A stretch of DNA of 64,000 nucleotides from Niebla homalea. Taxonomy: Eukaryota > Ascomycota > Lecanoromycetes > Lecanorales > Ramalinaceae. Below the pieces are notes generated by a model that did no database searches, was not told where the DNA came from, and worked only from the letters and a program-made list of their open reading frames with translations. Positions 1,183-23,290 of this stretch are shown here, one piece after another (position 1 is the stretch's first letter; each line of letters opens with the position of its first letter). Position numbers and translations under genes: made by a program. The stretch lies in the NCBI GenBank assembly GCA_019925105.1, contig JAHGAU010000031.1, positions 322,501-386,500 of the forward strand, read 5' to 3'.

Positions 1183-2520
1183 TCGATTTATTAAGTGCAA
1201 TAAGGCTCTTTAGTCCACTATTAAGTGGCTTAGGTTCAGTAGTAACTCAACGGCTTATTAGCTCGGTTAAGAAGGTGTCAGTTAGTCAGTTAATTAGTGA
1301 GGCTCCTAAGTCCGCTGTTAAGCGGCTTAATTTCAGTAGTATCCTGTCGGCCCTCGCGATGGGGTTCTCGGGGTTGTGGTAACTGCTGTAACGTCGCAGT
1401 ATAATCACGGATAGCTATTATTATGCCAGGGAACTGATCTATAAGGTCTAGTTATGAACGGAATAATAGCTATGGTGGTGGCTATGGTACAGGACGCACC
1501 CATCATATGAGTGTGGGTGCCAAGGAGCTAGTACTCATAGCGCAAGTAGGCCGAGCCTGGGAGCAAGGCCTGCTGGAACCATAACACGATACCCCCCTTT
1601 ACGACGGTAAGCTCCTGCCACCTAGACCAAAACCACCCCTGTCGGACCTGGGTATAGCCTCAAAGAGCCACCGAGTGTATAGTTAACACCTTGAGCATAG
1701 CTGGTGGTTAAGTGTTGAAGGCTAAGTAACCCGGGTGTTGAGAAAAAGCTCCTGAAAAATCGACTGGAAAAGGTGAAAAAACCGAGTATATATATATGAA
1801 AAAATCGACTTCAGTTGAGTCGATTGGCGTGATCTCCGGGGTAAATCCGAGTCGTATACTTTCTGTCGAGAAGGGTTTAATGTAGGGCTACCACCGGACG
1901 CCGTTTTGCAACTGAAGCGATTGACGAGATGTCCGCAGGTGAGCCGGCTGAGTGGCTCTCACCCCTGTAAGTGAGCTGAAGCCGTAGCTGAGTTTTATGG
2001 CTTTCACCCTTGACACGGTCGTCGCACTTGTAGATATTATGTAGATTTCCACCTCTTGCTCCACCCATGGTATTACCTTCACCCGTATCACTACCAGTGT
2101 TAACGTCCACCCAGTTCTAGCCATTTATGGCCTGCAGGGGTCTCCACTCTTGGTTCCTGCAGCTGCTGACGTCTCATGGGCTCGTCATAGCGTGCTTACT
2201 GCACGGCTTGCTGACTGACTAATATGCGTCCTACTTGACGCGATACTCGAGGTAATTGAAGTGTACGTCGTACCACTTTAACAGTACTGTTTTTGGTGAA
2301 GTACGAGTATACGAAAGGCTCACAACCAACCTCTCTATACACAAAGATAGCTATTATTATATCAGGGTACTAGAGTAGGTAGGTCCTAGTAATGAATGAA
2401 TCATAGCTATGAAGGTAGCTATGATACATATGTACGCCAACCCCCCCCCGGGAGCCAGGCCTACCTAATGGGGAAGGTAGGCCGAGGCTGGAGGCATCGG
2501 CCATAACACTCGATCCGAGT
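1183..2520. repeat. Unclassified repeat block with two related hairpin modules
   Basis: No gene is visible. Two related modules, about 1408-1590 and 2346-2520, both start with ATAGCTATTATTAT and contain a nearby inverted copy (AATAATAGCTAT in the first, AATCATAGCTAT in the second). Both later carry a GGCCGAG/GAGCCTGG-type stretch and end near a CATAACAC motif. Between them lie a perfect 8-bp hairpin, AATCGACT/AGTCGATT (about 1804-1826), and a GC-richer segment. The direct arrangement suggests terminal repeats of a small element, but I found no coding evidence and no target duplication. Confidence 0.4.
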
Positions 2521-3084: not shown

Positions 3085-4671
3085 TCAAGTTCCGCCGTCG
3101 GTCAGGTCAGACGCCATGGCGTATTGAATCGTGTATTTGCAGGCATTCTCACGATATAAATCAGGGTCTCGAAGGTAGGTTTCCGCGATTTCAGGAACCA
3201 GCGGGTCTTCGAGGCCTGGTTTGTCCAAGATGGACAAGATGCTGAGTAGGATTCTGTCGAACGGCGAGCTTACGGGAGACCATTGATCCCCTAACAGATC
3301 CACGCAGATGTTGCCCAGGTGGTCGATGTTAGGATGATAAATCCGCGTCAGGAGTTGTATTTTGGGTGGCTTGAACGGGAAGTCTTGGGGAATTCGGATA
3401 GTGAGCCAGAACACACCGCCTTCGTAGGGTGTGTTGGGAGGACCCTCGATGCCTCCCAGAAGATGGCACAAATTGTTGTCGACCGGCCAACAAACCAGGG
3501 GTCGCGACTTTGCCGTTGGGAGAGCATCTCGTATGCTTTTTACTAGACACGTGAAAAGTCTCTTGGTCGGAATTACCGCAGGGTTGTAGGACCGAAAAAC
3601 CTCTTGTGTGCTGAAGTCAAGAGCGTCCAATGGACGCGGTGCAGCGAGGACCGCCTCGTCCCACAAAACCGAGTTGCTTTGCCTTTGAATGGCCTCTCGG
3701 ACGTACGAGAGGTGTTCTGGAAACTTCCCTGAGCTCGCCATGTCGACCACATTGTAGGCCCCTAACCGCGATCCATAGGCGGCCAGCTTGGTGTTGTCCA
3801 CAGGCTTGAATGCGTACTTTGGTCTCAAACCCAAATTCGCAATCACACGAGAGTTCTGGGCGAGCCCAGCCGGGAAAGCTGGTGAGTCCGGCTCTTCCGT
3901 GTCGATGGCGTTCTCGTTGGCATCGGCTTCACCCACTGCGGCGAGCTCTGGCGCTGTGAAATACGTCGCATTATCCGACTCTGTACTTCTGTCAAGTATC
4001 GAGACCCCTTCGATCACCGATAGCCGGGAACTTGCAACCTCGAGTGCGTTGCCATTCTCGTCCGTTACGGCATCACAAAGCAACCTTAAGCTTTCCACGT
4101 CCTCCAGAGATTCCACCTCGGTCCGTAGTCTGGCTCGCTGAACTTCCAAGACGCCGAGTTTTTCTGAAACCTTTTCTAGCCCATCGATCAAGCGTGTAAG
4201 ATCTTCGACGCGTCCCTTGAATTCGTCTGCTCCGTAGACTGCCCACTTGATAGCACTCGTGACCGGCGCTTTTCGTCGACGTCCAGCGGCTCCCTGTCTA
4301 AACTGCTCGTAAGTCTGGCCAAAGATGTTCAAACCTGGCGATGATCGTTTACGGAAAGAAATGCGGTCCCTGAAGCGGTCGCTCTCGTGCAAGAGGAAGA
4401 CAATGGCTTCCAAGGTGTTCGCGACGGTACTGCGGATCTGGTCATCGTTTAGAGCAGCATGCTGAACAAGCGGAGCGGCGGCATCGCGAGATCCCAAGCC
4501 GAAGGCCTCTCCCCACAGACAAAAGCGTAGACGTTGCATATCGAGGTTCGCACAGATGATCGCGTAGTCTCTTCCGAACTCACGGGCCGTCATGACAATA
4601 TTGAAGGCGTTTATGCAAGTGGTGAATAATGCCGTCAGGCTGATGGCGCCAATGGCAGCACTGGTAGCCTC
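3085..4671 (-). CDS. HeLo-domain / E2 ubiquitin-conjugating enzyme fusion protein
   Basis: Single-exon ORF of 528 aa from the chosen Met; an in-frame Met 45 nt upstream (4716) is the alternative. Residues about 1-215 look like a HeLo domain, the N-terminal membrane-targeting domain of HET-S-type fungal cell-death proteins: a hydrophobic start (AIGAISLTALFTTCINAF), then FGRDY, LRFCLWGEAFGL, AIKWAVYG and helices ending in a VEDLTRLIDGLEK-type region. Residues about 367-518 are a full E2 (UBC) fold: PYEGGVFWL, FPFKPPKIQLLTRIYHPN (HPN motif), then GNICVDLL with the catalytic Cys near residue 456, QWSP and DPLVPEIA. All key E2 positions are present, so it should be active. The linker (about 216-366) is acidic and low in recognisable motifs. 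No C-terminal amyloid motif is seen. The gene sits alone between RIP-damaged repeats but is itself undamaged. Confidence 0.85.
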   Translation of the reverse strand, partial: EATSAAIGAISLTALFTTCINAFNIVMTAREFGRDYAIICANLDMQRLRFCLWGEAFGLGSRDAAAPLVQHAALNDDQIRSTVANTLEAIVFLLHESDRFRDRISFRKRSSPGLNIFGQTYEQFRQGAAGRRRKAPVTSAIKWAVYGADEFKGRVEDLTRLIDGLEKVSEKLGVLEVQRARLRTEVESLEDVESLRLLCDAVTDENGNALEVASSRLSVIEGVSILDRSTESDNATYFTAPELAAVGEADANENAIDTEEPDSPAFPAGLAQNSRVIANLGLRPKYAFKPVDNTKLAAYGSRLGAYNVVDMASSGKFPEHLSYVREAIQRQSNSVLWDEAVLAAPRPLDALDFSTQEVFRSYNPAVIPTKRLFTCLVKSIRDALPTAKSRPLVCWPVDNNLCHLLGGIEGPPNTPYEGGVFWLTIRIPQDFPFKPPKIQLLTRIYHPNIDHLGNICVDLLGDQWSPVSSPFDRILLSILSILDKPGLEDPLVPEIAETYLRDPDLYRENACKYTIQYAMASDLTDGGT

Positions 4672-5052
4672 CATCGAAGATGTTGATGTCAAGAAATTCG
4701 GGTCGATTGTCAACAAGGGTTTTTCTATCCTGGAGCCTTGGGGAGTAGGAATGGTAGGGTGGTCGCCCGGCGGGCCTCAGCCTGAATTCACGATTGAAAT
4801 ACGACAGAGGCTGTGGCAGCCCTAATGCCCGAAACAAGTACCGAATCTGCCTTGCGTTACAGCAAAAGACTCCTGCAATGAGGATTGCACCACTGTTCTG
4901 GATTTATTGAGGGATAGGGGAAGGAAAGATGCTCCAGGCAGATACGAAGTGTAACGACGTAAAGGAAAGCTGATAACGGAAAAGGTATGCTGGCAACGAT
5001 ACGGACAGGACACACCCGGTTGCCCGCAATAATATGGACATATGACTGTAAA
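4672..5052. promoter_or_regulatory. Upstream region of the HeLo-UBC gene
   Basis: About 380 bp of normal-composition DNA between the gene start and the first family A LTR fragment. It should contain the promoter, and the LTR lies within a few hundred bases of the start codon. No specific motif is identified. Confidence 0.4.
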
Positions 5053-5135
5053 TGTTAGGGTTCAGGGGTATTGGTAACTCAGGAGTAGGCCCTACGGGGC
5101 TTACGCCGGGCTAAGCCCGGGGTTAATCCGGCATC
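5053..5135 (+). repeat. LTR family A, 5' fragment
   Basis: Starts TGTTAGGGTTCAGGGG and matches the first 83 bases of the full copy that follows directly at 5136, then stops in the GGCAYC segment. This is a truncated copy joined head-to-tail to a full copy. Confidence 0.75.
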
Positions 5136-5351
5136 TGTCAGGGTTCAGGGGTGTTGGTAGCTGAGGTGCAGGCCCTACCGGGCCTACCCCGGGCCAAGCC
5201 GGGGGTTAGTCCGGCACCCAGGAGTGTTACCGACTGGGTATATTAGGGCCTTCGGCCCCTTCACTCTTACACCTCTGTACTTTAGTGTCTTTAGTTATAC
5301 GCAATACACCCTTTGCCTTCCAACCACCCCAGAGGGGCTTGCACTCTAACA
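5136..5351 (+). repeat. LTR family A, full 216-bp copy
   Basis: Begins TGTCAGGGTTCAGGGG and ends GCACTCTAACA. The family has TGTTAG/CTAACA terminal inverted repeats, a GGGCCTTCGGCCC hairpin in the middle, and matches copies at 8957, 16056, 16677 and (reverse) 9416. It could be the 5' LTR of the gypsy relic downstream, but the flanking pentamers do not match any partner. Confidence 0.85.
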
Positions 5352-7559
5352 AGGAATTCTTAAAGTAATTAGACCTTTTACGTTAAAAATATAACCTTAA
5401 TGCTTAATACTATAAGGACGTAAACGATAAAGTATAAGTTTTTTAAATAGAATTAAACGATATTAAGAGGGATCTATAATTAAAAACGAATTAAATTACC
5501 CGTTTATAATAATAAAATTATAGTAACTCCCTTCCCCCGGAAGACCTAAATCGTCTTAAAGCGTTAGAAATTTATAACCGTAAATTAAAAGGTTAAAACG
5601 TAAACCTTATTATCGAGCTTAAAAATCTCCAATGGAATAATTTAGCCCTCCCCCCTTATTAATCTACGGCATCCCTTACTTTTTATAAAAAGTTTAAGTT
5701 AATTAAAATTAAGGATCCCGAACCCTTTATAAAGGAAAACCGTAACCAATACCGTTTCTTTAAACGCCGCGTTATTATTAAGCTCCGGACGAACGAGGAT
5801 TAATACCCGACTATATAGGCTTAAATCGACTATATTTTAATATTATTAAATCTTAAAGTCCTTAAATAATTAAAAACGGAATACGACGATAATATTTTAT
5901 TAAGCTTTTAAACCCTTAAGGAATTCTAGACCTTTTTAAACCGAATTTTTAAAAACGTTAATTAAGAGGAAGACCAGATTAATAATTTTTAAGCCTTAAG
6001 AATATTAATTAAGGATAAATTTATAATATTTTACCTCGATTTTACCCGCTTAATTAAAGTCTTTAAGTACGTAAATCTTAAGAAAAACCTGAAAATTATA
6101 GTTCGCGAATTAATTACTTAACTCTTTAACCGGCTTTACGAGAACCTCCTTTAAGGAAGTTATAACCTGGATAACTTAAACGAAACCCGGGTATACTTCG
6201 AGAGGATAAACCGTTTTTAACGTTTAGAATATTACCGTTAATAAAAAACCCTTAACCCGAGTAAAACCCCTATTAAGGAAATTAAGGAGATTATAAGAAC
6301 CCGTATTACTTCCTTTAAACCCCCCGGTAAAACAGGAGGTTTCGGAGGGTCCGGGTTCCAATAAATTATTTCCGCCGTCGCGAAGTTAACTCCCCCTCCG
6401 GACGTTAAATGCTTCACCTATTAAGGGAACTATTTCCAAGCCGATTACCTTAACTATTAACGTAACCAAAACAATACTCGGGAACGTTCCGTTTAAGTTT
6501 ATTATATTACCCCCGATTTAAATAAAGAACCTACCCGTAATTAAGGCGGCCGGATCTTTTATATCCTTAAAGATACCTTATTTAATAATTCGGACGGGCT
6601 ATCAATAAAAGATTAAACTCTATAAAAGTTATTATAAAGGAGGAAAACGCGTATTACTTTTAAATTTTAACGATTAAGTATATTAATAATATTAAAGACC
6701 CCTTTAACGTTTAGGATAATAAACCCTGGATTATTAACGGGTTTATAAGTTATAGAAATTAATATTTTCCTTTATTCTTCTTAATTAATTTAAGCGTTAT
6801 TAATTATTATTTTATTGATAAATAAATTATCCTATGAGTTTACGTAACACTTTAAATTTCTCCTTTAACCCTCTCCCGACCTAAGCCTATTTAAGATTAT
6901 AAGGGTAAATACTTACGGTTTATTACTTATATAATTTATCCCCGGATAACCATAAAAAGCCACTCGGAAAGCCAGTTTTTTATATTTATTACCTAGCTTA
7001 AAATATATAACGTAATCCTTAGAAAACTTTAAATATAACGGCATTACGTATTCGCCCACCCTATAATTAATAAGATTTTCTTTATATTAAATTAATATAA
7101 TTATAACGGGGCCGATTATTAAAATGCGAAGCTTATTCCGGAGTTCTTTTAGACTATAGCCTTAACTTATTAAGCTTTAAATATACTCCCAGAAAGCAAG
7201 AAATTGAAGCTATTAAAGCCCCGGGAAAAGAAAAGGAAACCATTAAACAATCTTCCCCTCCCGGAGCTTATCGATAAAGAGAGGCTTTTCTTAATTAAAG
7301 CTATTAATATAACGGCCTTCCATATTATTATAAGGATTTAAAAGGAGAAAGGGACCTAGACCTTTTATATTTCGGTAGCGGACCTAATTAACTACCTAGA
7401 TTTCCTTAATAATGCCCCAGTTAATATCTCCGCTATAATAACCTATAAGGATAACTTCGCGGAGGAAGCGGCCCCTATAGATAAGATTACGGCTAAACTT
7501 CCAGCGGAATATTACGATTTCTAGGATATCTTTAATCGCGTAGCGGCAGATAAGCTACC
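5352..7559 (+). mobile_element. Ty3/gypsy relic 1 (gag to start of reverse transcriptase)
   Basis: RIP-damaged and without an intact ORF. A gag zinc-knuckle remnant (KCFT..GN.FQADY) is readable at about 6409-6450, with TAT/TAA where Cys/Gln codons are expected. At about 7490-7560 the frame reads LPAEYYDF.DIFNRVAADKLP, the linker that precedes gypsy reverse transcriptase. The frame is then broken by insertion of the small LTR element at 7560 and resumes at 8836. Confidence 0.75.
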
Positions 7560-7703
7560 TGTTAGCGCCTATGCGCACCCCGCAGGGGTGGCCTACCGGG
7601 CCTAACACCACTTATATGGTAATAGCGGCTTACCCCTAAGCGCTATTACCTGCCCAGGTTAGCTACTTTTGCCTCCGTGGCCGAGTGGTTATCCGTCCTA
7701 ACA
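7560..7703 (+). repeat. 5' LTR of the small LTR element
   Basis: 144 bp. Contains a strong hairpin at 7618-7650 (GGTAATAGCG/CGCTATTACC with a nested CTTA/TAAG stem around CCCC) and a CACCCCGCAGGGGTG palindrome near 7577. Its 3' end carries TGGCCGAGTGG (7678-7688), an exact match to a pol III A-box of tRNA-Ser type. Confidence 0.85.
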
Positions 7704-7788
7704 TTGTAATAGCGCACTTCAGGGGCTGTGCACCCCCCGGAGTGAATACATAGGGGCAGGTGGCGGTTCGATTCTCGGAAGACGCAGG
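7671..7788 (+). promoter_or_regulatory. tRNA-Ser-like remnant with pol III A and B boxes across the LTR/internal junction
   Basis: A-box TGGCCGAGTGG (7678-7688) lies in the LTR. A B-box-like GGTTCGATTC (7765-7774) lies 62 bases into the internal region. The layout resembles a class II tRNA 5' and 3' half. Acceptor and T-stem pairing are poor (about 4 of 7 acceptor pairs and 2 of 5 T-stem pairs), so it is not a functional tRNA gene. It could still be a pol III promoter. Confidence 0.45.
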
Positions 7789-7985
7789 CCTTTTCTGCAC
7801 TTCTCAGGATACCGGGTGAGTAAGACACCTAGCGTGGGGCCCGTAACGGCCTTAAACTAGTGGATTTAGGGGCCGGAACGCCCGAAAACTACCGAAACGT
7901 GGGCCAAAAGCGAGCCAATAGGGTACGAGCAACCCTGAAACTTCAAAGTGGGCTTAAGCCAATGAGCTCTTTGCGGGTAACGAGT

Positions 7986-8580
7986 ACCCCACAGGGGGCT
8001 CGAGCAAAACGTGATGCCCTGAGTGGACCGATTATGGTGCCCTCCGGGGATCGGCTTGAATGCGCGATTTTCGAGTGCGGGGCCCTGCGGGGACCGGCTC
8101 AATTGCGGGTCTTTGGTGGTCCGGGTGCCCTTCCACTGTTGGGTATCTGGTCCTAAAGGGCCGGCTGGGTTATGCCCTTGCGGGGGCCTCTGAACCCGAA
8201 AAGTGGGCCATGCCTTGCGGGGCCTCTGAGCCTTTCGAGTGCGGTACCCTTGCGGGGGGACCGGCTCAACCCCGGAACATGCCCTTGCGGGGGCCTCTGA
8301 GTCCAAAGTGGTCACCCCCTGCGGGGGCTCTCACCACTACCGGTAGGTGATCCCCACAGGGGCTCTCACTGAAACCTGAAGTCCGGTGCCCTGCGGGGGC
8401 CGACTTCACCTTGGAGCGCGGTACCCTGCGGGGGACCGGCTCAACCTCGGGACATGCCCTTGCGGGGGCCTCTGAGCCCTACCGAGTGCGACACCCTGCG
8501 GGGGTCGACTCACCCTGGAGTACGGTGCCCCGCGGGGACCGGCTCAACCCCGGTAGGTGATCCCCATAGGGGCTCTCACT
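7986..8580 (+). repeat. GC-rich array of imperfect palindromic units
   Basis: About 15 irregularly spaced copies of a CCCTGCGGGG-type core (variants CCCTTGCGGGGG, CCCCACAGGGG, CCCCATAGGGG). Many are flanked by paired arms such as GAGTGCG/TCGACTC or GGTACC/ACCGGCTC, so single units can fold into hairpins. Unit spacing is roughly 35-50 bp. The same core also occurs in each LTR of the element. Confidence 0.75.
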
Positions 8581-8691
8581 GGATACGGAAGTCGGGCCTT
8601 ACGAGTAGGGCCTCCAGCCTGGGGTAACCCCCCAGAGGCGTGGTTTTAGTAGCCTGTACACTCGGGGACGAGTGCATAGGAGGGGAAGTAA

Positions 8692-8835
8692 TGTTAGCGC
8701 CTATGCGCACCCCGCAGGGGTGGCCTACCGGGCCTAACACCCCTTATATGGTAATAGCGGCTTACCCCTAAGCGCTATTACCTGCCCAGGTTAGCTACTT
8801 TTGCCTCCGTGGCCGAGTGGTTATCCGTCCTAACA
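8692..8835 (+). repeat. 3' LTR of the small LTR element
   Basis: Near-identical to 7560-7703; one visible difference is CCACTTATATGG versus CCCCTTATATGG. It has the same hairpin (8750-8782) and the same A-box-like sequence. The following pentamer CTACC completes the target duplication. Confidence 0.85.
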
Positions 8836-8956
8836 CTACCCCCATACCGGGACTATAATTATAAGATTAACTTAACCTCGGAGGATTCCCCCCTGGAGTC
8901 GTATCTATCTACTTTTAGGCTATAAGCTTCAGAAATTAAAGAAATATATTACCGAG
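8836..8956 (+). mobile_element. Ty3/gypsy relic 1, continuation after the insertion
   Basis: Removing the element and one CTACC copy restores the reading frame from the preceding DKLP into a P.RDY.YKINL-type start of gypsy reverse transcriptase. The relic is then cut at 8957 by a family A LTR. Confidence 0.65.
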
Positions 8957-9172
8957 TGTCAGGGTTCAGGGGTGTTGGTAGCTCAGGAATAGGCCCTACC
9001 GGGCCTATCCCGGGCCAAGCCCGGGGTTAGTCCGGCACCCAGGAGTGTCACCGACTGGGTATATCAGGGCCTTCGGCCCCTTCACTCCTACACTTCTGTA
9101 CTTTAGTGTCTTTAGTTATACGCAATACACCCTTTGCCTCCCAACCACCCCAGAGGGGCTTGCACTCTAACA
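8957..9172 (+). repeat. LTR family A, full 216-bp copy
   Basis: TGTCAGGG start and CTCTAACA end; very close to 5136-5351. The flanking pentamers (CCGAG and CATCC) differ, so it is not a simple solo-LTR insertion. Confidence 0.85.
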
Positions 9173-9309
9173 CATCCAGGAGAATTACCGACTGCGTATA
9201 TTGGGGCCCTCGGCCCCTTTACTCCTGTACCTCTATACTTTAATATTTTTAATTATATATAATAGACCCTCTACCTTCCAACCACCCCAGAAGGGCTTAT
9301 ACTCTAATA
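9173..9309 (+). repeat. LTR family A, 3' fragment
   Basis: Resumes at the CAYCCAGGAG position of the LTR and runs to ACTCTAATA. It shows more transition damage than the neighbouring copy. Confidence 0.75.
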
Positions 9310-9415
9310 AAAAGAAGCTTTTCGGAAGCTCATAAGATATTAATCGGCGCGCTACCCCACTCGGTACTTATAGGGGTCTGTATCTTAAAGACATATGGAG
9401 CTTAAAGACGTAAAC

Positions 9416-9635
9416 TGTTAAAGTGTAAGCCCCTCTGGGGTGGTTGGAAGGCAAAGTTTATATTACGTATAATTACTATAAAGATAATGAAGTATAAAAG
9501 TATAAAAGTAAAAAGGTTAGAGGCCTTAATATACCCAGTCGGTAATACTCTTTGTACCGGAGTAACCCCGGGCTTAGCCCTGGGTAGGCCCGGTAAGGCC
9601 TGTACCTGAGCTATTATCACCCCTGAACCCTGACA
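9416..9635 (-). repeat. LTR family A, full copy in reverse orientation
   Basis: The reverse complement of the family A LTR from TGTTAAAG to CCTGACA, with moderate transition damage. No matching target duplication is seen. Confidence 0.8.
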
Positions 9636-12600
9636 GGAATAATTACTTTTCTTTAAATTTATATAACTTATCGGGAGTAAATAGTTAAAAAAAATAAAAA
9701 TAATTAAAGACTTTAAAAAGTTGTCCTTTAAAATAAAATGTCCTTTCTTAATATTAATTTAAAAATCTTATAAATTGGGTCTACCCAGGATAATTCATTA
9801 AAAATCTAACTTAATAATAAGTATAAAATATTAAATTAAGTATCCGAACTTATGTTTATTATTAAGTAAATTATATAAGACATAGTCCCGTTTATATTCT
9901 TGTTAAAATTATTTATCGTTTTCTTTTTCATAAAAGTATTAAATTAATATTAAAATCTTTATAAAAAGAATATGTAAAAGTAATATTGATAAAGGAATAA
10001 CCCGTAACTCCTATATTTATAAAAATAAAATAAATTCGACTTTTTTTATTTATAAAAGTATATAATACTATAGAAGCTTTCTCTATAAAATAATTATTAT
10101 CCGAATTAATTAATGTTGATATTAATAACTTTTTTCCCTTAACCGCGTTAATATTATGGGTAATTAATTTTTTAAACCTATATTTATTTCCTAGATTTTA
10201 TTAACTTTTATTTTATACTTATTAAAATAAGTCGTTAAGATATAATTAAATTGTTTATAATAATAATAAAGTTTAAAACAGCGTTTATTCTTTAAACGTT
10301 TTCAAAAATTGTTTTTTTTAATTAAAAATACCAGCTATATATATAATCTTTTTTTATAACTTTAATACTATTTCCTTATTCCTTAATTTTATCTTATTAA
10401 TAAGTGATTATTTTTTTCTTCTTTTCAATATCCACGATATTATTAAAGTTAATAATATATAGTTTTAATGGTTTTAAAATAATAAATCCAAGGGTTTATT
10501 CAGAATCTATCTTTAAGTCGCGGTACTATTTAATTATATAAATGATATTATATTTCATTTTTAACGGTATTTAAGGATATTAATAAGTTCAAATATATTG
10601 CTTTTAAAACTTCCGAACTCACCGGTATTATCTTAATAAAACGTATAATAGTTACGGCGTATTTTACCTTATCGATTTACCTTCTTATTAATTTTATTTA
10701 AATAATTTATAATATGCTTTAGTTAAAAACATAAATTATTTAATACCCTTTTATATTATAAATGAATATGTTTTAATACTTCGTTTCTTATATTATTACA
10801 TATAAATATTACTTTAATATTATCCGTAAGGTAATAATTATAATGATTTTTAAAATAATCTTAAATAATAATTTCTTAATCTTTATATAAAATAGTATTA
10901 TTTCTTCTATTCGTCAAATAAAAAATTTTTTTATTTCCAATATAAGTTTTATACGTTTCTTTTTTTCATTAAACATATTAATCTATATTTATTTCTATAA
11001 GTATACATTATTTATATATATTAACTTAATTAATTTAAGAGTATTCTTGAGTTAATTATTAATATGTTTCATTGAAGTATCAAAGTTTATGCTTTTAATA
11101 TAAAATCGGTAAATCTTAACTATAATAATAATTTTAAAATTATTAATATACATAACTTCCTTAATAAATTTAATACCTTTATTACGTTTAACTGAAGGTC
11201 AATTATGTTTTTTTAGGTTTTTATCAAGGTCATTTTATAACTATTAAAGTAAATAATATATAGTTTTAAAATCTTAAATAATTATCCCGTTCTTTTTATA
11301 TATAAACTTATTAAATAATAGAATTATAAAACGTAAATTAACTTATTTGGAAAAGGGGTTGTCGGGGGTGAAGTCCGTTACATTTATATTATTATTATTA
11401 ACTTTGAATTTCAAGGAGTTAAAAAACTTATAAGATAAGTCCTTTCTAAAAATTAAGTTAAGTGAAAGAATAAACTACTTTATACGAGATAATAAAAGTA
11501 AAGGAAGTATAGGGTATATTCTTAATATCGTAAATAATATAAGTATACGGGGATAGGATTATAGCGATAACCCCTATAATAGGCCCTGAAACGCGATTTC
11601 GCCCGGGAGATTAAAAAATATCTTTAAAATTAAATAACTATCTTCTATAATTACTTTCTTAAACTCCCTTAAGCCCCCGTTAATGTAATTAGCTTCACGG
11701 ACCTGTTTATAAAACTTAAGTTCTTTAAATATTAAACAAGCTAATACCGGTACTTTTTCCCTTTTATTTAAGGTTAGAACCTTAAGGCGTTTAAAAGGTA
11801 GAACGGTTTAAAATTAATTTTTAACCTTATTATTATCGTTACCTTATAATCGATAACCGGGTATTTAAGTAAAAGTATTAGCTTTATTAAGTTATTTACC
11901 CGGGCGGTAAATAACTTTAAAATTAAACTTAAAGCGGATATTTAAGTATTTAATTTAACGTTTAATAAGCTTTTAACTTTTAATAAAGTACTTTAAGGCT
12001 TAATTATGATTAAAAATTCAGAGAAACTTCTTTATTATTTTTAATTTAAGTTATTTATTCTTTAAGTACCGGATAATAACGAAGAGTTCTTTATTATAAA
12101 TATTATAATTATACTGAACCGGTAATATATTCTTAAAGTAATAGGCTACCGGGTATAACTCCTTACCCGTATCGTATTCAGAAAAAATACCGTTAGAATC
12201 GTAATTTAAAAAATCCGTTTTAAGGATCGTTTCTTTATCGGGATTGTAATAAATTAATACGGAAGTTATAATAAGAGCTTTTTTAAGTATAATATAAGCT
12301 TTTTAATATTCCGGGGACTATAAGAATAAGGTTTCCTTTTTAATAAGCTTTAAAAAGGGCTTTATTATCTTAAAGAATTAAGGGATAAATCTTTAATAAA
12401 AATTATAAAAACTGATAAATCCTTAAAAAGCTTTAAGGTTAAGGGGAACCGGTTAATCCTTAATTTTATTTACTTTATTAAGGTTTATTTTTAGCCCGTT
12501 AATATTAAGAATAAGACTTAAAAACCTAATTTATTATACTTTAAATACTTCCAGATAATTAGTTATAAGCCGGCGTTACGTAAACGTTTTGATATTAAGC

Positions 12601-14000
12601 GTATATAACGGGTATATTCTTTTTTAATAATACTATTTAAGTAAGTTTAAATAATGTTATTTAAAGAATTAAATAAAACCTTATTTATATATTATTAATA
12701 TAAGGCGGGGCTATTAATTAAGTTAAAAGGTATAACTTTATACTTAAAGGCGCTTAATAAAATAACGAACATCGTAAAGTTTTTATTCTCCGGGTATATA
12801 TAAAGTTTATTAAAGGTTATAATAATATTTAAGCGGGTAATCTACTTATAACTAGTAACTCGGAATAGTACCTCCTTAATTAAGAGAATAAAATATTGGT
12901 TCCTTCTAATAATAACATTAATATTATAATAATTTACGTATTATTATAAATCGCCATTAAACTTAGAAGTAAAAAAGATAAAGGGTTTATAGGGGGCTTT
13001 ATTAAGCTTAATAAATCTTTTTTCTAAGTTCTTAATAATATATTCCTTTAATTTTTAAAGTTTATAATTCAAAGCGGATAAATATAACTCCGGGGTAAAA
13101 TCCCTTTTAAAATTAAGTTAATCTTATAATTATAGTCCCGGTACGGAAATAATTTATTTATTATTACGTGATTAAAAATATCCTTAAAATCATAGTATTT
13201 AGCCGAAAAATTAACTATAATCTTATTTATAAAGGCCGCTTTTTTTTATAAAGTTATCCTTATAAATTATTATAATAAAGATATTAACTAAGGTATTATT
13301 AAGGAAATTTAAGTGGTAATATAAGTCCGTTATAGAAGTATAAAAGGTTTTAATCTTTTTTCTTTTTAAGTTTTTATAATAATATAGAAAGTTACTATAT
13401 TAATAACTTTAATTAAAAAAACTTTTCTTTTTTAATAGGCTCCAGATAAAGAAAATCGCTTTATACTTTCTGTCTCTTTTCAGGGGGCTTAAAAGGTATT
13501 TTCTGTTCCTTTTACCGGGTTTTAAGTAAGTTTAATCTTTTATTTTTCAAGAATACGTTTAAAGCTTAATAAATTAAGATTATAATTCGAAGGAATTCCG
13601 AAATAAACTTTACGCTTTAATAATTAACTTCTTTATAATTATATTAATTCAAAATAAAGAATCTATTATTGATAGTGAAATAAACGAATACGTAATACCG
13701 TTTTATTTAAGGTTTTTTAAGGATCGAATTATATATTTTAAGCCGGATAATAAATATAAAAGATTAGCTTTTTAAGTAACCTGGAAAGGGGGAAACCAAG
13801 GAAGACATAGAACTTGCGGTTAAGTACAGGAAGGAATGAAAACATTAAAAGGGTTAATTAAGGGTGGAATTACTTCCTATATACTTTAAAAAGGGAGAGT
13901 AAGGCGAATTATTATAGTAAAGATCCTATACCTTACTTACTTACATAGGGGTTATAGCTTATCTTGAATCGTATTTTATTGCTTTATACTATTTTATTAC
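9636..14000 (-). mobile_element. Ty3/gypsy relic 2 (pol, reverse strand)
   Basis: Reading the minus strand at about 12,850-12,480 gives a degraded gypsy reverse transcriptase: a YKVIPFNLINSPALYQ-like segment (the family's MPFGLTNAPATFQ block), then a YLNSIII stretch where the catalytic YLDDII is expected, then KYLKYNKLGF. Stops are frequent. Both boundaries are approximate; the lower-coordinate part should hold RNase H and integrase, which I could not trace with confidence. Confidence 0.6.
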
Positions 14001-15440
14001 TTTTATTTTTTTATTATTTTTTATTTCTTTTAATGGTCTTAAGAAGGCTTTTATTTACTCATATATATTAAGGAACTCAGTTGAACTATACGATTTAATC
14101 GTAAATAACCTACCATATTAAAAGAAACGATAAAAATATTATATAAAACCGATCTTTATTGTTATTATATTATATATATATAATAAAAACAATAAATTAT
14201 AAATTTATATATATTTATAGAATATTCTTAATTATTACTTATCTATTGAATAAATATTAAAATCGGGAAAAATAAAAATATTTAATTAACTTTTTTTAAG
14301 TACCTTTATTTAAATATTCTTATTATTATATTCGATTAATACGGAGACCCCGTTTATATATATTAATAAGATATTATTAATATTTATTCAATAACTATTA
14401 ATAATTGGAAATTAAAAAGTGGACAAATGGGTAACGCCCTTAAAACGCCTTAACTATAAAGGCATAATAATATCCTTTATATCGATAATAGGCTTATACC
14501 TTAATTAAGAAAAAATCGTATATATTATTAGATGTTTTAAACTATTATTAAGGAAGATGTAATTAATATATTAATATAAAACGTTTTCTTAAAACGGAAG
14601 AAATTAAAGCAATTAAAGAAAAAAATAGAAAAAAAATTAATTACCTTAAATAACGTAAAACTACTATTTAATAATTAATAATTATAATATTGGAACTATA
14701 AGACTTAATAACCTATACCGAGCAATTAAACCCAATTAAAATATAAATTTTATTAAATTATTTTAAGTAATTAAACTTAATTAAATCCGATTAAATTATA
14801 AGTTTTAATATTTTATTCCGAGCGATCGAACCGTATATTATAAATAAAACTCCTTAATTTAATTTAAAGTATTATATATATTTCTTAAGAACGTAAGGTA
14901 AATTTTAATAATTTACTTTAAATAAATAATTTATATTAATAAATATATAAGACTCCTTAATAATTATAGGAATAATTAAACTGAATTATGTATCTTAATA
15001 TTAAAGGTAATAAAAACAAGATTCCTTAATAAGGCTTAAATAGTTATATATACCTTTTAAAAAGACATTCCTTATTAAAACGTAAATTATTAAGTTAAAA
15101 GTTACTTAACTTATAATTAGGTTTTAAATTACTTATAAAGGTTTAAACCGGTCTCTAGAACTCCTAGGAAATAACCGTTAACCATATAATACGCTAATAA
15201 GACGTAATATGCCCTTTATTTCGAGTTATAAATTAAACGATTAAAATTAAAAAACCAGAAAATAAATTAAGAAAATAAATAATAAAAAGAAATAAATAAT
15301 AAAAGTGATTAAAAGAATTAATAGATAAATAAAAACAGAAAATTAAGTATATTTATAATAATAACTATCACATATATATATTAAGAATATTAGCTATAAC
15401 CTATAACGGTTACCGACGTAAAACTTATTTTAATTAACGG
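14001..15440. other. AT-rich, unresolved repeat DNA
   Basis: Very high A+T with abundant TA dinucleotides and stops in all frames. Presumably decayed transposon sequence, perhaps the upstream part of the integrase relic that follows. No signature can be named. Confidence 0.4.
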
Positions 15441-16055
15441 TATCCTTTTTAAGGCATTTTTATATAAAGGGTTAAAAGAATAAAAATAGATACCTAAGTT
15501 CTTTATATAATTTATATAGACTTTATTATCGCTTTATTAAATTAATATAATTACGATATACTCCTTATTGTTACCGATAAGTTCTTTAAGCGGGTATTTT
15601 TGCTCCCCGGTAATATTAAATTTAAGGCTAATAATTAAACAAAGTTATTACTAGCCGAATTAATAAAATAAGGATAAGGAATTATTTTTAATATTATATT
15701 AAATAGAGATCGTAAATTTATTTTTATATTTTAAAAATCCATATTTAAAGAAATGGATATTCGTATTCTTACGTTTAACGTATATTACCCTTAAATTAAC
15801 GGTTAGTTAGAACGGATTAATTAAGCGGTCGAAATCGCATTACGTTATTTCGTAATTATATATCCGGATTATAGCTAGATAGATATTATCCTATATGTTT
15901 AAAGCATCTTAAATAATTTAAAGTTAACGTTAATTAAATTTATTCCGAATAAAATTTATTATAATATAAATATCCGTAACCCTTTAAACCTTTTAATAAC
16001 CTCTTTAATTCCTAAGTATAATATACTTTAATTATAGAATCGTAAAGAAGCATAA
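15441..16055 (+). mobile_element. Ty3/gypsy relic 3 (integrase)
   Basis: The + strand frame reads a decayed integrase catalytic core: a DFIIALLN..YDILLIVTDKF segment, then NRDRKF (family SDRDPRF), then YYPQINGQLERINQAVE (family YHPQTDGQTERVNQ). Cys/Gln/Arg codons are mostly converted to stops or T/A codons. The relic is cut off at 16056 by a family A LTR. Confidence 0.75.
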
Positions 16056-16271
16056 TGTCAGGGTTCAGGGGTGTTTGTAGCTTAAGAGTAGGCCCTACCG
16101 GGCCTACCCCGGGCCAAACCCGGGGTTAGTCCGGCACCCAGGAGTGTCACCGACTAGGTATATCAGGGCCTTCGGCCCCTTCACTCCTACACCTCTGTAC
16201 TTTAGTATCTTTAATTATACGCAATACACCCTTTGCCTTCCAACTACCTTAGAGGGGCTTGCACTCTAACA
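16056..16271 (+). repeat. LTR family A, full copy
   Basis: TGTCAGGGTTCAGG start, GCACTCTAACA end, 216 bp. It directly abuts the TA-flanked inverted-repeat element. No matching flanking pentamers (CATAA versus CTAAC). Confidence 0.85.
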
Positions 16272-16676
16272 CTAACCGGACAAACTCCCTAACCGGACAC
16301 GCTAAGCCCGATTTAGATTGCTTTTTTTCTTTTCTTTTTTTTTCTTGGTCTTCAACCTACTTATTATATCCTTATTGCTCTACAAATAACACTTATAGAC
16401 CGGCAATTAATAGGATCTGGATAGTCTTACCCTCACCCTCAGTAAGCCCGTTACTATGTCCTCCAGCAAGCCTATTACCAGGCCCTTTACCAAGCCCTTT
16501 ATTAAACCCTTTATTAGGCCCTTTATCAAAACGCGATGATTTAAGGCTTATCGCGGTAAGGGCATATAAGGATCAGGTATGGCCTTATGTTGAAGGGTTT
16601 AAGTAACGGCTTGCGGAAGGATTAACTGAAGGGCTTGCTGAAGGGTTTATTCATCTGTGAGGTTGAGGGTGAAGGT

Positions 16677-16892
16677 TGTTAGGGTTTAGGGGTGTTGGTA
16701 GCTCAGGAGTAGGCCTTACCGGGCCTATCCCGGGCCAAGCCCGGGGTTAGTCCGGCACCCAGGAGTGTCACCGACTGGGTATATTAGGGCCTTCGGCCCC
16801 TTCACTCTTATACCTCTGTACTTTAGTGTCTTTAGTTATACGCAATACACCCTTTGCCTTCCAACTACCCCAGAGGGGCTTGCACTCTAATA
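16677..16892 (+). repeat. Solo LTR family A with intact target duplication
   Basis: 216 bp from TGTTAGGGTTTAGGGG to GCACTCTAATA. It is flanked by the exact 5-bp duplication AAGGT (16672-16676 and 16893-16897). This copy proves family A is an LTR with TG..CA ends (CA mutated to TA here) and that it inserted into the GGTGAAGGTAAG-type repeat. Confidence 0.9.
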
Positions 16893-17005
16893 AAGGTAAG
16901 GGTGAAGGTAAGGGTGAAGGTAAGGGTGAAGGTAAGGGTGAAGGTAAGGGTGAAGGTAAGGGTGAAGGTAAGGGTGAAGGTAAGGGTGAGGTAAGGGTGA
17001 GGCTA
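16893..17005. repeat. 12-bp minisatellite (GGTGAAGGTAAG)n
   Basis: About nine tandem units, nearly perfect, inside the inverted-repeat element. In one frame it reads as a Lys-Gly-Glu-Gly repeat, which I do not believe is a protein. The part to the left of the LTR insertion (about 16650-16676) carries one more degenerate unit. Confidence 0.85.
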
Positions 17006-17162
17006 TGTAAAACCTACTGACTGACGGTCTGTAAGCGTCATTCATAGAGTAATAAGGATGTAATAAATAGGTTGAAGATTAAGAAAAAAACCAAAAGATA
17101 AAAAAGCAATCCAAATCGGGTTTAGCGTGTCCGGTTAGGGAGTTTCTCCGGTTAGGGGGTGA

Positions 17163-17222
17163 ACCCTTCTAAGGAGTATTACCGACTGGGTATATTAGGG
17201 CCTTCGGCCCTTTGACTCCTAT
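17163..17222 (+). repeat. LTR family A fragment, left of the copia insertion
   Basis: Matches the middle of the family A LTR (AGGAGTATTACCGACTGGG, GGGCCTTCGGCCC, GACTCCTAT). The rest of the same LTR continues at 22840, so the copia element at 17223-22839 split it. Confidence 0.8.
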
Positions 17223-17458
17223 TGTCAGCCTAGGTGTAGGCATGGTGGTAGTGTTGCGGGCATGGAGTGTCACTGAGCCGTTATGCGAGCGGTGCCAAGA
17301 CACTCTCATAACACGTGTATATCTCATTACCTGGCCGTATATCCCAGACTAGCTGGGTATATCCTGCAGTCTTCTTTTATAGATCCATCTTTATAGATCA
17401 TATTCAATTTATACTACCCTATTATACAATTTATACTTATACGTCCATACGTATAATA
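17223..17458 (+). repeat. 5' LTR of the copia element
   Basis: Starts TGTCAGCCTAGGTG and ends CGTATAATA (CGTGTAACA in the 3' copy). This LTR keeps its first half better than the 3' LTR, while the 3' LTR keeps its second half better, consistent with uneven RIP. Confidence 0.85.
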
Positions 17459-17472
17459 GTTATAAGCCCGGT
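17459..17472 (+). promoter_or_regulatory. Candidate primer-binding site (initiator tRNA-Met internal fragment)
   Basis: GTTATAAGCCCGG directly follows the 5' LTR. It equals, after one G-to-A change, the complement of the anticodon region of initiator tRNA-Met (GGTTATGAGCCC). Some fungal and yeast copia elements are known to prime from such an internal tRNA fragment. Confidence 0.45.
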
Positions 17473-20400
17473 TATATATACCTAGTGCATCTATTAGAGA
17501 TTCGAATTATTCATTTAATAATTAAATCGCGTAGATATAGCCTTTAAGCTATATACTTAAAGGATAACATATAGAGACTTAAGCAGAAATTATAAAGGGA
17601 CCGACCTTTCTCCTTTCTTGTTAATTAATCAATTTAAGATAAGCTCTTATAAAGTAAAGCTCGTTAATTCTAAAGATTAAGACGCATAATTATCTATCGT
17701 TAAGGGAAAGGCAACGGGATACCATATCTGGGATCTCGTAAACCCTACCCTTAATATTAAGCTTAAAGCATTAATAAAGCCCGATAAACCAGAAGTTCCT
17801 TAGGTCTTAGGCGATTAAGTTATAAATACTATAATTATATATAAGATACGTATGATATAGTATAAGAGTTACGTATTACGGTAAGAAAAGCAGGATACTT
17901 TATTAACGAAGCTTAACGATTTTATCTATTTATTAATTAATAAGGTAAATCTTATATACCTTTAGGACGTAAAAGTCCATCTATGGGACTTCCTTTAAGC
18001 CCTTTAATTAAAAATAGTACCTTTAAACTCCGCCCGCTTTTTAAAAGTAGAAAAGGAGTATTATCATATTAAGACCGGTCCTGGATCTTAATAAAGTCCT
18101 GAATCCTAAGTAGATAAATAAATATATATACTTGCTTAAGCCAGGAACAATCGTCTTATAGAAACCTTAGACGATAAACGCGTATTCCGCGATTTTCTAA
18201 TAGTAATAAAGAGATATACATTAATATTGTCCTAGATATATAAGTTCAATATTGGGAACGTAGCAGATTATTCCGTGGCCCTCGCCACCGCTAAAGAGCA
18301 ATTCAGATACCATATCCGGCTTTACGACGTAAAGAAGATGACTTTAACGTATTTAGCGTTTATAACTAGCGATAAGAAAACCGGTAGCAATAATACTTTA
18401 AAAGAATTAATAAAATTAACCTATAAGGGTAATATAGCTAAGCTAATTAAATACCTATATAATATAAAACATTAATTCAGCGAATATAATTACTTTCGAG
18501 GTAATCGGCTTAATAGGCCATTAAATTTCAAACGAGACTCAGTTATCATGAAAAAGGTAAAAGATAAACTTAAGGATTAAAAGACCAGGGAGAGGGTTAA
18601 TAAGGCTCTTAAGAAGTCCAGAAATATCGAGTAAAAGGAAAAGTTATTACCGGTACTATTAAACGATAAGTACGGAGCTTTTACTATCTTAGGAAATATA
18701 AATCTTAAATCGTCCTGGATTATAAATAGCGGCTCTATAGTTTATATTTATAATAATATTATAAGAGACCGCTTTATTAAAGAAGTGAATGGCGAAAATA
18801 ACACTATCGTTATAAGCATTAGAAATAATAAAGTTAAAGCATACGGAAGTATTACCCTTCGCGTCAATAAGCCTATTAAAAGAAAGGCCAAAATTACCTT
18901 TATAAAGGTGGCCTATATCCCAGACTTTATAATAAACTACTTATTTAACAGTGTTCTTAAGCAAAAAAATATATACTTTAAATAATAAGAACGTATGCTT
19001 ATCTATAAAGGATAGCTTATAATGCTATTGAAATATACCGATAGTCTCTATATCCTCGAAGATAATATTGAATAACGAGATATTAATAGTGCTTTTATAG
19101 TTAATAAAACTGTCTTAAAACGATTAATAAAGTTATTAATAAAGTTAGGAATAGTAGCGGAATAACATTAACTCCTTATTTATATTAATAATAATTCTAT
19201 TTAATACTTCGTAGGAGCAGCTAAAAAAGTAAAGATTATAGATAAAGAGAAGGTTCCAAAAATAAGTAATTATAAAGTCTATGCCTTATTAAAGGCTTAT
19301 TGAATCGTATTAAGGTTATTATATAAAGTAGAAACCTCATTAATACCTTTCTTTTAAATCATTTATAATCTTATGTAAATAAGTATTATAATGAACCGTA
19401 ATTAATAAGTATTATATATCGCTTATTCTGAATACGATTTTTAAATAATATATACCCATAGGTATAAGTCAAAAGCGAGTAATATTCTACGGAAAGCCAT
19501 TAAAACGATTAAGACCCGATTTTATTATAACGTAGCCTTTATTCGATTAAACGGTAAGATATTATTGGGATCTGAGTTTAATAGCCTTATCGATGAGCTC
19601 GGTATCACCTTTAAGCCGTCAGCACCAGACACCATAACATAAAACGGACATTCGGAACGGAAGGGTGGACTATTAGTTATTAAAGCACAGGCAATAAGAT
19701 TATAAGTAAATTTGCCCCAGTTCCTATAACCATGGATTATGCAAACGGCCGGTTTCCTTATAAATCGAATACCAATAAAAAAGCACTTATAGGCTATACC
19801 ATTCAAGAAAGTTATAAATTTAAAGTTAAACCTTTAATACTTAAAACAATATAGCTATAAGGCATACCTATTCGATAAGTCCATCCTAAGGAAAGAAAAG
19901 CTCGTATTAAGAGCATATATTGGTTTCCTCGTTGGCTATTATGGTACCAATATCTATAATATCTGGATACCCAGCCAAAAAAAGTTATCCGTACCCGAGA
20001 CGTCTTCTTTAACGAGAAAGAATTCTATAAAGCAGGTGAAATCAATGTAACTTAAATCGAGAATAAGTTATTCCTCGAGGTTTTATTAATAGATATTATA
20101 TACCTTATAATAACGATTAATAGTAAGGAAGGTAAAGAAGATAAGTAAAACGGAATCACCGGGATAAAACCTTTAAAAGAATATAAAGAATAATAACAGT
20201 TATATCCCTCTTTATTAACTTTAACGTCCACGAACTATAACTCCATAGACGAGGATAACGCCGGGGGTAATAATGGTGACGGTAATAGTTCTGGGGGAAG
20301 TAATAGTAACGGTAATAAAGGTAACGTTCCACCTACTTCAATATTAACTTTAAAGCCTACCTTAAAGCCCAGAAAGAGAGATAATAATAAATCGGACTTT

Positions 20401-22612
20401 AATATAAATAATATTATTAAAAAAAAAAGGACCGGACGAGGTATAAAAAAAGTAAGTTATACTATAGCTCTTAATTCAGTTAAAAACGGTTTAAAGCTAT
20501 TATATTACGTAGTATTTACTGCCTTCCTATTATTATTTAAGCTCTATAAGAATAATAAGATATCTTCTTATTTACTGAAGTTAATAATTAAGGGCACGTT
20601 CTACCGTAATACCTTACCTTCTGAGCCGAAATACTATCGTTATATGCTAAGATACCCGCATACCGTAAGCTTTAAGTTAGTAATCGAAATAGAGCTTAGC
20701 TTACTTAAGGCAAAAGGAACATGGAAAAAGGTCCCACTCGATCATACAGAAAAAGCGAGTAAAATACCCATCCCAACCACTTGGGTATTCAAGTATAAAT
20801 TTAATAATAAAGGGTATCTTATAAAGTATAAAGCGAGGCTTTATATAAAAAATGATTTACAAAAGACCGAATAAGATAAATTTGCCGCTACCCTGGCAAT
20901 ACGAGTCCTAAGAGTACTTATGGCTATTATAGTTATATTCGATTTGGAAATAAGGTAGTAGGACGCCATTAATGCGTTTATTAATAGTAATATAAACGAA
21001 CTTATATATATTAAATTACCGGAAGGATACGGGGGTAAAGTCTTACTTCTCCTACTTCGAGCCCTATATAGGCTAAAGTAATTATTAATATTATAGTTCC
21101 GGAATCTCTTATAAATATTAATAAATTTAAACTTAAAATAAGTCCCGGAAATTAAATATTTCTTTATTAACGACTATATAATAATTTTCTTCTTTATAAA
21201 TAATATCGTTATTATTTATAATCGAGAGAATAGTTAAAAAGTAAATAACTTTTAAAGTTAATTCTTTTAAAGATATAAAATAAGAAACTAAAGTAAACTT
21301 AAGTAATTCCTAGGCATAAAGATAGCATAAAATAGATTAACTTATTAAATCCGCTTATGCCAGGATAATTATATCGATAAGCTTACGGTTAAATTTAATA
21401 TTATAATAATAAACCGAGCTCCTAAAGTACCTTTATATAATACCGATATATTTATTAAGAATACCGATTAAGCAATATTTTAAGAAATCTATATATATTA
21501 ATAGTTCATCAGCTTAATTAACTTTACTACCGTAACGACGAGAATAAATATAGCCTTCTCAGCCTTAAAGCTATCTAAGTTCCTTATAAACCCGTTACGA
21601 TATTATTAAGAATCAGCTATACGAGTATTATAGTACCTCGCTTATATAAAGTACTATATAATCGTCTATAACGGGCGTATTAAAGATCCCCGCATTGTAT
21701 TTATAGCTTTATCTAACGTATCCTTTACTGACGATACAGAGATACGGTATAGTTTATAAGGCTATATCTTTAAGCTCTTTAAGGGCTTAATTAATTGGAA
21801 AGCAATAAAATAAAAGACAATAACAATAAGCTTTATTAAAGCTGAATTCTTTGGTTTTACCCTTATAATAAAAGAGCTTATATAATAGAACCGTTTCTTT
21901 AAGTTAATTGTACTGGATTTATCGTATTCGCCAAAGATCGAGTATAACAATACTTAAATAATCCGTATAGTTTAAGGGATAAACTTACAGTTTACAATAA
22001 AACTCCGTTATATAAATATATATCATTATTAACTACGATAAGAATATTAAAAGAAAACGATTAATATTAAGTATATATTAATAGTAAAGATATTAGCGGA
22101 CGGCCTTATAAAGCCCTTGTTATTATAGAAATATAAGGATTCATTAAACTCTTAAGCCTTAAAGACGAAAAACCCCAGGAGAACCCCATATCGTGATACG
22201 ACTCGGCAAAACCCCAGAGACGTCGTTTTCGAGAGATTCAGCTCTTAAAAAATCACGACTATAAACCGGGTATACGATAATTTTTCCGGGTTCCCTTATT
22301 TTTACGATTTCCTCAATTTATAACTTTTTCTCGGCGTATACCTAGTAATAACTACTTAATAATATTTTATAGGATAATGCTCGGAGCTTTATTAAGTAAA
22401 TATAAAGCTCCGGAGCTGGTTAATATACCAAAGTTTTATTATTATTATTGCTTTCCGGGTTAACAATTTTTTTTATTAAAACTTTAATTTCTTAAAAAAC
22501 GTACCCTTCCTTATATAAGTTTCTCGGTCCATTAATAAGCTCGATTACAATAAAAGAAGTAACTATATAAGGATATCTAGGATCATTATTAAATAATAAT
22601 CTTAAGGGGGTA

Positions 22613-22839
22613 TATTAGCTTAGGTATAAATATAGTAATAATATTACGGGCATAAAGTATCATTAAGCCGTTATGCGAGCGGTATTAAGATACTCTTATA
22701 ATACGTGTATATCTCATTACCTGGCCGTATATCCCAGACTAGCTGGGTATATCCTACAGTCTTCTTTCATAGATCCATCTTCATAGATCATACTCAATTC
22801 ATACTACCCTATCACACTCATACGTCCATGCGTGTAACA
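22613..22839 (+). repeat. 3' LTR of the copia element
   Basis: Starts TATTAGCTTAGGTA (TGTCAGCCTAGGTG in the 5' copy) and ends CGTGTAACA. It is followed by CCTAT, the target duplication. Confidence 0.85.
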
Positions 22840-22925
22840 CCTATACTTTTATACTTTAATATCTTTAATTATACGCAATACACCCTTTGCCTCTTAACCA
22901 CCCTAAAGGGGCTTGCACTCTAACA
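22840..22925 (+). repeat. LTR family A fragment, right of the copia insertion
   Basis: Continues the split LTR: CTATAC...TTAATTATACGCAATACACC to GCACTCTAACA. Joined to 17163-17222 it forms the 3' part of a family A copy. Confidence 0.8.
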
Positions 22926-23135
22926 GGGTTCAGGGGTAATGATAGCCCAAGTACAGGCCCTACCGGGCCTACCCCGGGCTAAGCCCGGGGTTATTCCGGG
23001 ATAAGGAGTATTATTAATTGGGTATATAAGGGCCTCCGGCTTTTTTATTTTTATACTTTTATACTTTAATATCTTTAATTATACGTAATATACCCTTTAC
23101 CTTCTAACCACCCCAAAGGGGCTTATACTTTAACA
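22926..23135 (+). repeat. LTR family A, nearly full copy
   Basis: Begins GGGTTCAGGGG directly after the previous copy's CTAACA, so it lacks only the first five or six bases, and ends ACTTTAACA. Moderate transition damage. Confidence 0.75.
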
Positions 23136-23290
23136 GTTAAAAGGTATAAGTTACTTAATTATTATTATATATAAAGTAAAACTATATGCAAGGCCCTATG
23201 CCGCTATCCCACTTGGGTCTAGCACGTCCGCCTTATCTAATCTGATCCGCGTCACGTGATCTCCCAAGTGGCGATCCTGTACATTCAACA
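23136..23290 (-). repeat. LTR family B copy, reverse orientation
   Basis: Reverse complement of the solo LTR at 28064-28225 over almost its full length, ending at ATTCAACA (TGTTGAAT on the minus strand). The left part is RIP-damaged and fused to the family A copy; the right part is almost undamaged. It marks the boundary with the gene-rich region, about 260 bp from the ligase gene. Confidence 0.75.

Follow-up and report, generated by a model that had tools for sequence, protein, structure and literature searches.

A fungal protein family carrying a HeLo domain and an E2 ubiquitin-conjugating domain in one chain

One gene of Niebla homalea encodes a HeLo domain and a complete E2 ubiquitin-conjugating (UBC) domain in a single chain, and it belongs to a protein family in which the E2 active site and the hydrophobic HeLo N-terminus are conserved and the RING-docking loop is variable. 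The gene lies in the window analyzed here, a stretch of 64,000 nucleotides (contig JAHGAU010000031.1, positions 322,501 to 386,500). On the minus strand, an ATG at 4674 opens an intron-free single frame of 529 amino acids with no internal stop, and the stop codon ends at 3085 (3085..4674). The original prediction of an undamaged ORF holds, and its minus-strand frame is real, but the end it gave, 4671, falls three bases short of the ATG. Homologues P0002-P0005 are 79-82% identical to the query and cover 100% of it. Because homologues align across the HeLo domain, the linker and the E2, we read the two halves as one gene. A search of the 50.6-Mb N. homalea assembly (52 contigs), in which the best candidates were scored, listed 23 matches, of which this gene alone is full-length; the others each correspond to a HeLo part or an E2 part.

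The HeLo domain spans residues 7-199 (4078..4656, minus strand). It matches the Pfam HeLo profile (PF14479) at 124.5 bits, against a cut-off of 23.2 (E = 6.5e-36), and residues 7-203 match the solved HeLo chain of HET-s (2wvn) at E = 4.1e-13. A HeLo domain had been predicted at this end of the protein, and the profile search, which found HeLo-family similarity, left that call standing. Chance resemblance was rejected on these E-values and on conservation. Residues 6-24 (4603..4659, minus strand) form a hydrophobic stretch in the place of the HET-S membrane-targeting helix and are the protein's top 19-residue Kyte-Doolittle window (1.65, compared with 1.10 beyond residue 35). Among the 83 members with a complete start, the N-terminal window exceeds 1.6 in 81 and is the whole-protein maximum in 77. 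Two models of the whole protein were predicted (mean pLDDT 62 for the first and 78.6 for the second), the second being mostly confident and mostly helical; a helix is modeled at residues 13-24, and residues 1-8 fall below pLDDT 50.

Glu32 of the query aligns with a proline of the solved small-s chain, which we infer to be HET-s residue 33. The H33P change explains the loss of HET-s toxicity, according to the available part of PMC10197012. None of the ten commonest states of this column is proline: 27 of 111 rows have a gap, nine residues account for another 83, and a single row lies outside these states. HET-S and HET-s of Podospora anserina share with the query the HeLo domain, by profile and by match to a solved chain, and the hydrophobic N-terminus; they differ in having their own C-terminal amyloid domain where the linker and E2 stand here. 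As had been predicted, the protein has no HET-S-type C-terminal prion-forming domain: its C-terminus is the E2, and Pfam at E values up to 1 yields only HeLo and UQ_con. Amyloid control was rejected on this basis at the level of Pfam families, and a short amyloid motif may be present in the linker. The same Pfam scan found no kinase family of the sort that follows the helical bundle in MLKL. A PADLOC search of the protein gave no matches, and an NCBIfam search gave one at chance level (E = 0.061).

The E2 fold occupies residues 368-521 (3112..3573, minus strand). UQ_con scores 121.6 bits against a Pfam cut-off of 27, and only E2 chains, with no HeLo chain, appear among the rows listed by Foldseek (first model) and VIA (second model, whole protein), so the call of a complete C-terminal UBC domain stands. 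The predicted HPN motif and catalytic cysteine are both present. His447-Pro448-Asn449 (3328..3336, minus strand) is kept in 112 of 112 members, and Cys457 (3304..3306, minus strand), which aligns with position 85 of UBE2D2, in 110. The QWSP motif that had also been noted is present in the query but is not a family constant, Pro467 being found in 50 of 111 aligned members. Like Ubc4/Ubc5 (UBE2D) enzymes, the domain has the fold, HPN, catalytic cysteine, Asp490 and the Pro-Leu-Val-Pro-Glu-Ile-Ala segment; unlike them, it is fused to HeLo, its RING-docking loop is variable and it changes fast. Two members similar to each other, P0032 and P0034, retain HPN and have arginine at the catalytic cysteine position. 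They are natural candidates for non-catalytic E2s, and some lineages may therefore do without catalysis.

Between the two domains lies a linker block (residues 271-332; 3679..3864, minus strand). A profile of residues 268-335 matches 98 of the 112 proteins that have both domains, and in 98 of 98 the match falls between them. The block is variable overall, with a mean entropy of 2.44 bits and most columns varying. Gln273, Arg276 and Gly301 are nevertheless near-invariant, Tyr300 and Leu304 are favored, and residues 291-330 are modeled at pLDDT 90-94. A search of PDB sequences for a known domain here gave no convincing match; the top one, a designed TPR protein, had E = 0.052. The linker bears on whether the fusion could be an artefact of gene modeling or assembly, with two adjacent genes read as one. 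Fusions of that appearance do occur among the matches, for example in P0106, where an acyl-CoA dehydrogenase is followed by a complete Ubc4-like tail. For the present gene, the intron-free single frame, the homologue alignments that run across the joint and the occurrence of the linker block in 98 of the 112 members make an artefact, or two separate genes, extremely improbable, and we rejected both.

The search for further HeLo-UBC fusions revealed a large family. The query protein retrieved 116 proteins and a 37-row profile retrieved 122 (120 listed), giving 126 distinct proteins; each search scored about 8,000 candidates with a full-length query, which favors proteins with both domains. All 126 and the query were then scored with HMMs built from our own alignment of 37 family proteins. 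Both domains were present in 112 of these 127, a proportion that reflects the full-length-query search and is not a fusion rate. The remaining 15 comprise one protein with HeLo alone and 14 with UBC alone. Among the latter, seven (P0100 and P0111-P0116) have their start within the linker or close to it and seem to be N-terminally truncated, the linker profile matching four of them; five are acyl-CoA dehydrogenase fusions (P0103-P0106 and P0109), and the others are P0108 and P0117. The Ubc4-like sequence that ends P0106 has its own methionine, which suggests that models of neighboring genes were merged. A Pfam scan of ten members of 596-1087 amino acids found both domains in all ten. Some members carry extra repeats, either ankyrin (P0061 and P0092) or TPR (P0082 and P0127). 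Five named members come one each from Lecanoromycetes, Eurotiomycetes, Leotiomycetes, Dothideomycetes and Sordariomycetes, so the fusion is widespread and no peculiarity of the N. homalea locus. Public database entries already bear automatically assigned names, one of them "prion-inhibition and propagation-domain-containing protein".

We examined the origin of the fusion using trees of each domain. A quick UBC tree held 134 rows, made up of 125 homologues with at least 110 aligned residues and nine E2s from the N. homalea genome. In it, the HeLo+UBC label on 112 rows required eight changes, and starred branches force at least seven of these. The smallest clade holding all 112 had a support of 26 and took in seven others, P0100 and P0111-P0116. 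Because these seven look N-truncated, they were counted as family in a thinned tree (75% identity cut; 65 of 125 rows and four of the nine own-genome E2s). In this more careful UBC tree, a single branch splits 62 family rows from seven other E2s, with weak support (79/14; 82% of bootstrap trees). A HeLo tree separates 102 rows of the homologue set from three own-genome paralogues, its sole outsiders, by one change (SH-aLRT 90). With branch support of 79/14, the trees are compatible with a single fusion event but do not prove one.

Conservation is uneven along the protein. Over 111 aligned members, mean column entropy reaches its minimum at the E2 active site (residues 443-460; 0.92 bits), followed by the HeLo N-terminal helix (residues 5-30; 1.24 bits) and the C-terminal part of the E2 (residues 475-520; 1.29 bits). 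The rest of HeLo averages 1.83 bits. Loop 7 of the E2 averages 2.53 bits; some members have insertions in this loop, where the alignment is uncertain, and part of the variability may come from that. In UbcH5, loop 7 contacts RING E3s, and Phe62 and Pro95 are RING-contact positions of that enzyme. The equivalents are loosely kept, Phe62 in 46 and Pro95 in 50 of 111 members; in the 47 closest rows they are kept in 33 and 36, respectively.

The E2 half also differs between relatives more than an ordinary Ubc4 does. Six close kin (P0002-P0007) share 76-80% identity with the query in the HeLo half, 74-87% in the linker and 76-83% in the E2, and the E2 half is 42-57% identical to the other 30 rows of alignment A1. 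By comparison, two exon matches of the ordinary Ubc4 of the same genome to a Podospora Ubc4-like tail show 100% and 91% identity; a third match extends across an intron and shows 49%. Measured by these protein identities, 42-57% versus 91-100%, the E2 half thus appears to change fast for an E2, with its active site kept. Such a pattern might be expected of an integrated sensor, in which the E2 half would serve as a fast-evolving bait or monitor: parasites or viruses that target ubiquitin enzymes would disturb it and thereby free HeLo to kill. P0032 and P0034, which keep the E2 domain without its cysteine, would fit such a role. The active site is the best-conserved part of the protein, however, a pattern more in line with catalysis than with a bait alone. 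No attacker is known, the rate of change rests on protein identities, and we consider a sensor quite unlikely.

The reading that we tentatively favor, without holding it to be probable, is that the family is a conserved Pezizomycotina effector in which HeLo delivers a Ubc4/UbcH5-type E2. The original prediction had proposed that ubiquitin transfer could control HeLo or that HeLo could recruit the E2. From the features of the sequence we infer enzymatic activity, membrane docking, substrates and a part in cell death. Once activated, the HeLo domain would dock either at the plasma membrane or on other HeLo assemblies, and the tethered E2 would ubiquitylate membrane or HeLo proteins within reach, its own chain probably among them. 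The resulting ubiquitin could promote or limit regulated cell death. Because HeLo would do the targeting, the usual RING-docking surface would become expendable for the E2. HeLo is read as a possible E3 substitute, bringing a working E2 to its substrates, because the family conserves both the active site of the E2 and the N-terminal helix of HeLo and lets the E3-docking loop vary. Against the effector reading stand the arginine of P0032 and P0034 at the catalytic position, the absence of NLR and E1 families from the 11 other window frames scanned, the distance of about 34 kb to the one RING E3 frame seen, and the uncertain alignment of loop 7 in members with insertions; not all HeLo proteins need be killers. 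An ordinary membrane-anchored E2 for trafficking or quality control, with HeLo as an adaptor and no role in death, would account for the ankyrin or TPR repeats of some members, which are typical of adaptors, and toxicity is unproven by sequence. However, the hydrophobic N-terminal stretch of killer-type HeLo domains is strongly kept, and we regard such an enzyme as unlikely.

The E2 could instead act in cis, in the manner of MLKL control, by ubiquitylating its own HeLo domain and thereby switching it off through turnover or licensing it, with activation consisting of changed self-modification. HeLo and UBC divergence are in step (Spearman 0.71 over 5886 pairs), as any single gene tends to show. 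Precedent comes from MLKL, the necroptosis executioner, whose activity is set by ubiquitin in the available parts of PMC8184782 and PMC8816944: ubiquitylation licenses its membrane assembly (PMC8184782), and ubiquitin on its HeLo domain directs it to endosomes (PMC8816944). The acceptor lysine in the present protein is hypothetical, and we hold self-control in cis to be rather unlikely. As in the HeLo-E2 protein, a 4HB/HeLo-type domain and a signaling domain share one chain in MLKL; in contrast, its partner is a pseudokinase, and it is ubiquitylated by separate enzymes, ITCH among them (PMC8816944, available part).

The surroundings of the gene are of RIP type, as had been predicted. The adjoining AT-rich, repeat-holding block (5001..23000; repeat families D1-D5) has a composite RIP index of 0.50-1.29 in 18 of 18 1-kb bins (5,001-23,000), compared with -0.51 and -0.53 in the two bins of the gene itself. 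Within the block, repeats D1-D3 (5057-5363, 8957-9321, 16056-16904 and 22837-23147) are 78-228 bases long, with copies 60-92% alike to the reference, and the nearest copy starts about 380 bases upstream of the ATG. No other complete frame of at least 150 amino acids was found between 4,717 and 23,550, where the upstream flank is partly N. Of 36 other window frames of at least 150 amino acids, 11 were scanned with Pfam, and none of these 11 matched an NLR or E1 family. A ZNF598/Hel2-type RING E3 frame (38850-41417, minus strand; PF23202, E = 6.8e-25) lies about 34 kb from the HeLo-E2 gene and is probably an unrelated housekeeping gene. A Na+/H+ exchanger in the window has its best named relative, 70% identical, in Protoblastenia rupestris (Lecanorales) and a top match of 85%; by this one gene, the host is probably a lichen former. 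At locus L006, a HeLo frame (329-1018 of that locus, minus strand; PF14479, E = 8e-45) and a divergent NB-ARC frame (1495-2109, plus strand; E = 1e-9) are separated by about 0.5 kb, an arrangement reminiscent of the het-S/nwd2 gene pair. At locus L008, HeLo-like pieces (2-700 of that locus, minus strand) are followed by a same-strand NB-ARC frame (1378-2250; E = 1.1e-5); together they are probably one HeLo-NLR gene that introns or breaks interrupt.

The single-chain design has a partial counterpart in BIRC6/BRUCE, which likewise joins an E2 to a domain for cell-death control but is giant and anti-apoptotic, with a BIR domain and no HeLo. In P. anserina, HeLo proteins are joined to second modules (Rho, Pkc-like and P-loop; PMC3689799, Table 5), E2 being absent from the partner domains given in the available part of that paper. 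The same part reports that seven of nine HeLo-domain genes are upregulated during P. anserina incompatibility and that the genes induced in P. anserina as well as in N. crassa show an enrichment for ubiquitin-degradation domains. In the literature searched, mostly non-subscription and available in part, neither a HeLo and E2 pairing nor ubiquitin enzymes with fungal HeLo effectors are described. Within the available text, PMC6525431 includes both Pfam numbers in a table of counts, each in a row of its own, without pairing them. Papers on fungal immunity and NLRs likewise present no pairing in their available text: "ubiquitin" appears zero times in PMC10197012 and PMC12881547, and twice in PMC9815663, for Crinkler/ubiquitin-clan annotation.

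The sequences suggest that fungal cell death and ubiquitin are connected in a way that has drawn little notice. They could represent an old, undescribed class of immune effector that couples a necroptosis-type domain to a working E2, with HeLo in place of an E3 and membrane assembly triggering local ubiquitin transfer, although we think so strong a reading rather improbable. Ubiquitin controls MLKL in animals, and HeLo-E2 proteins pose the same question for fungal HeLo effectors. Their one-chain design, occurrence in five classes and intact active site make that question directly testable. If the reading is true, fungal cell death would parallel necroptosis in the control of the killing domain as well as in the domain itself.
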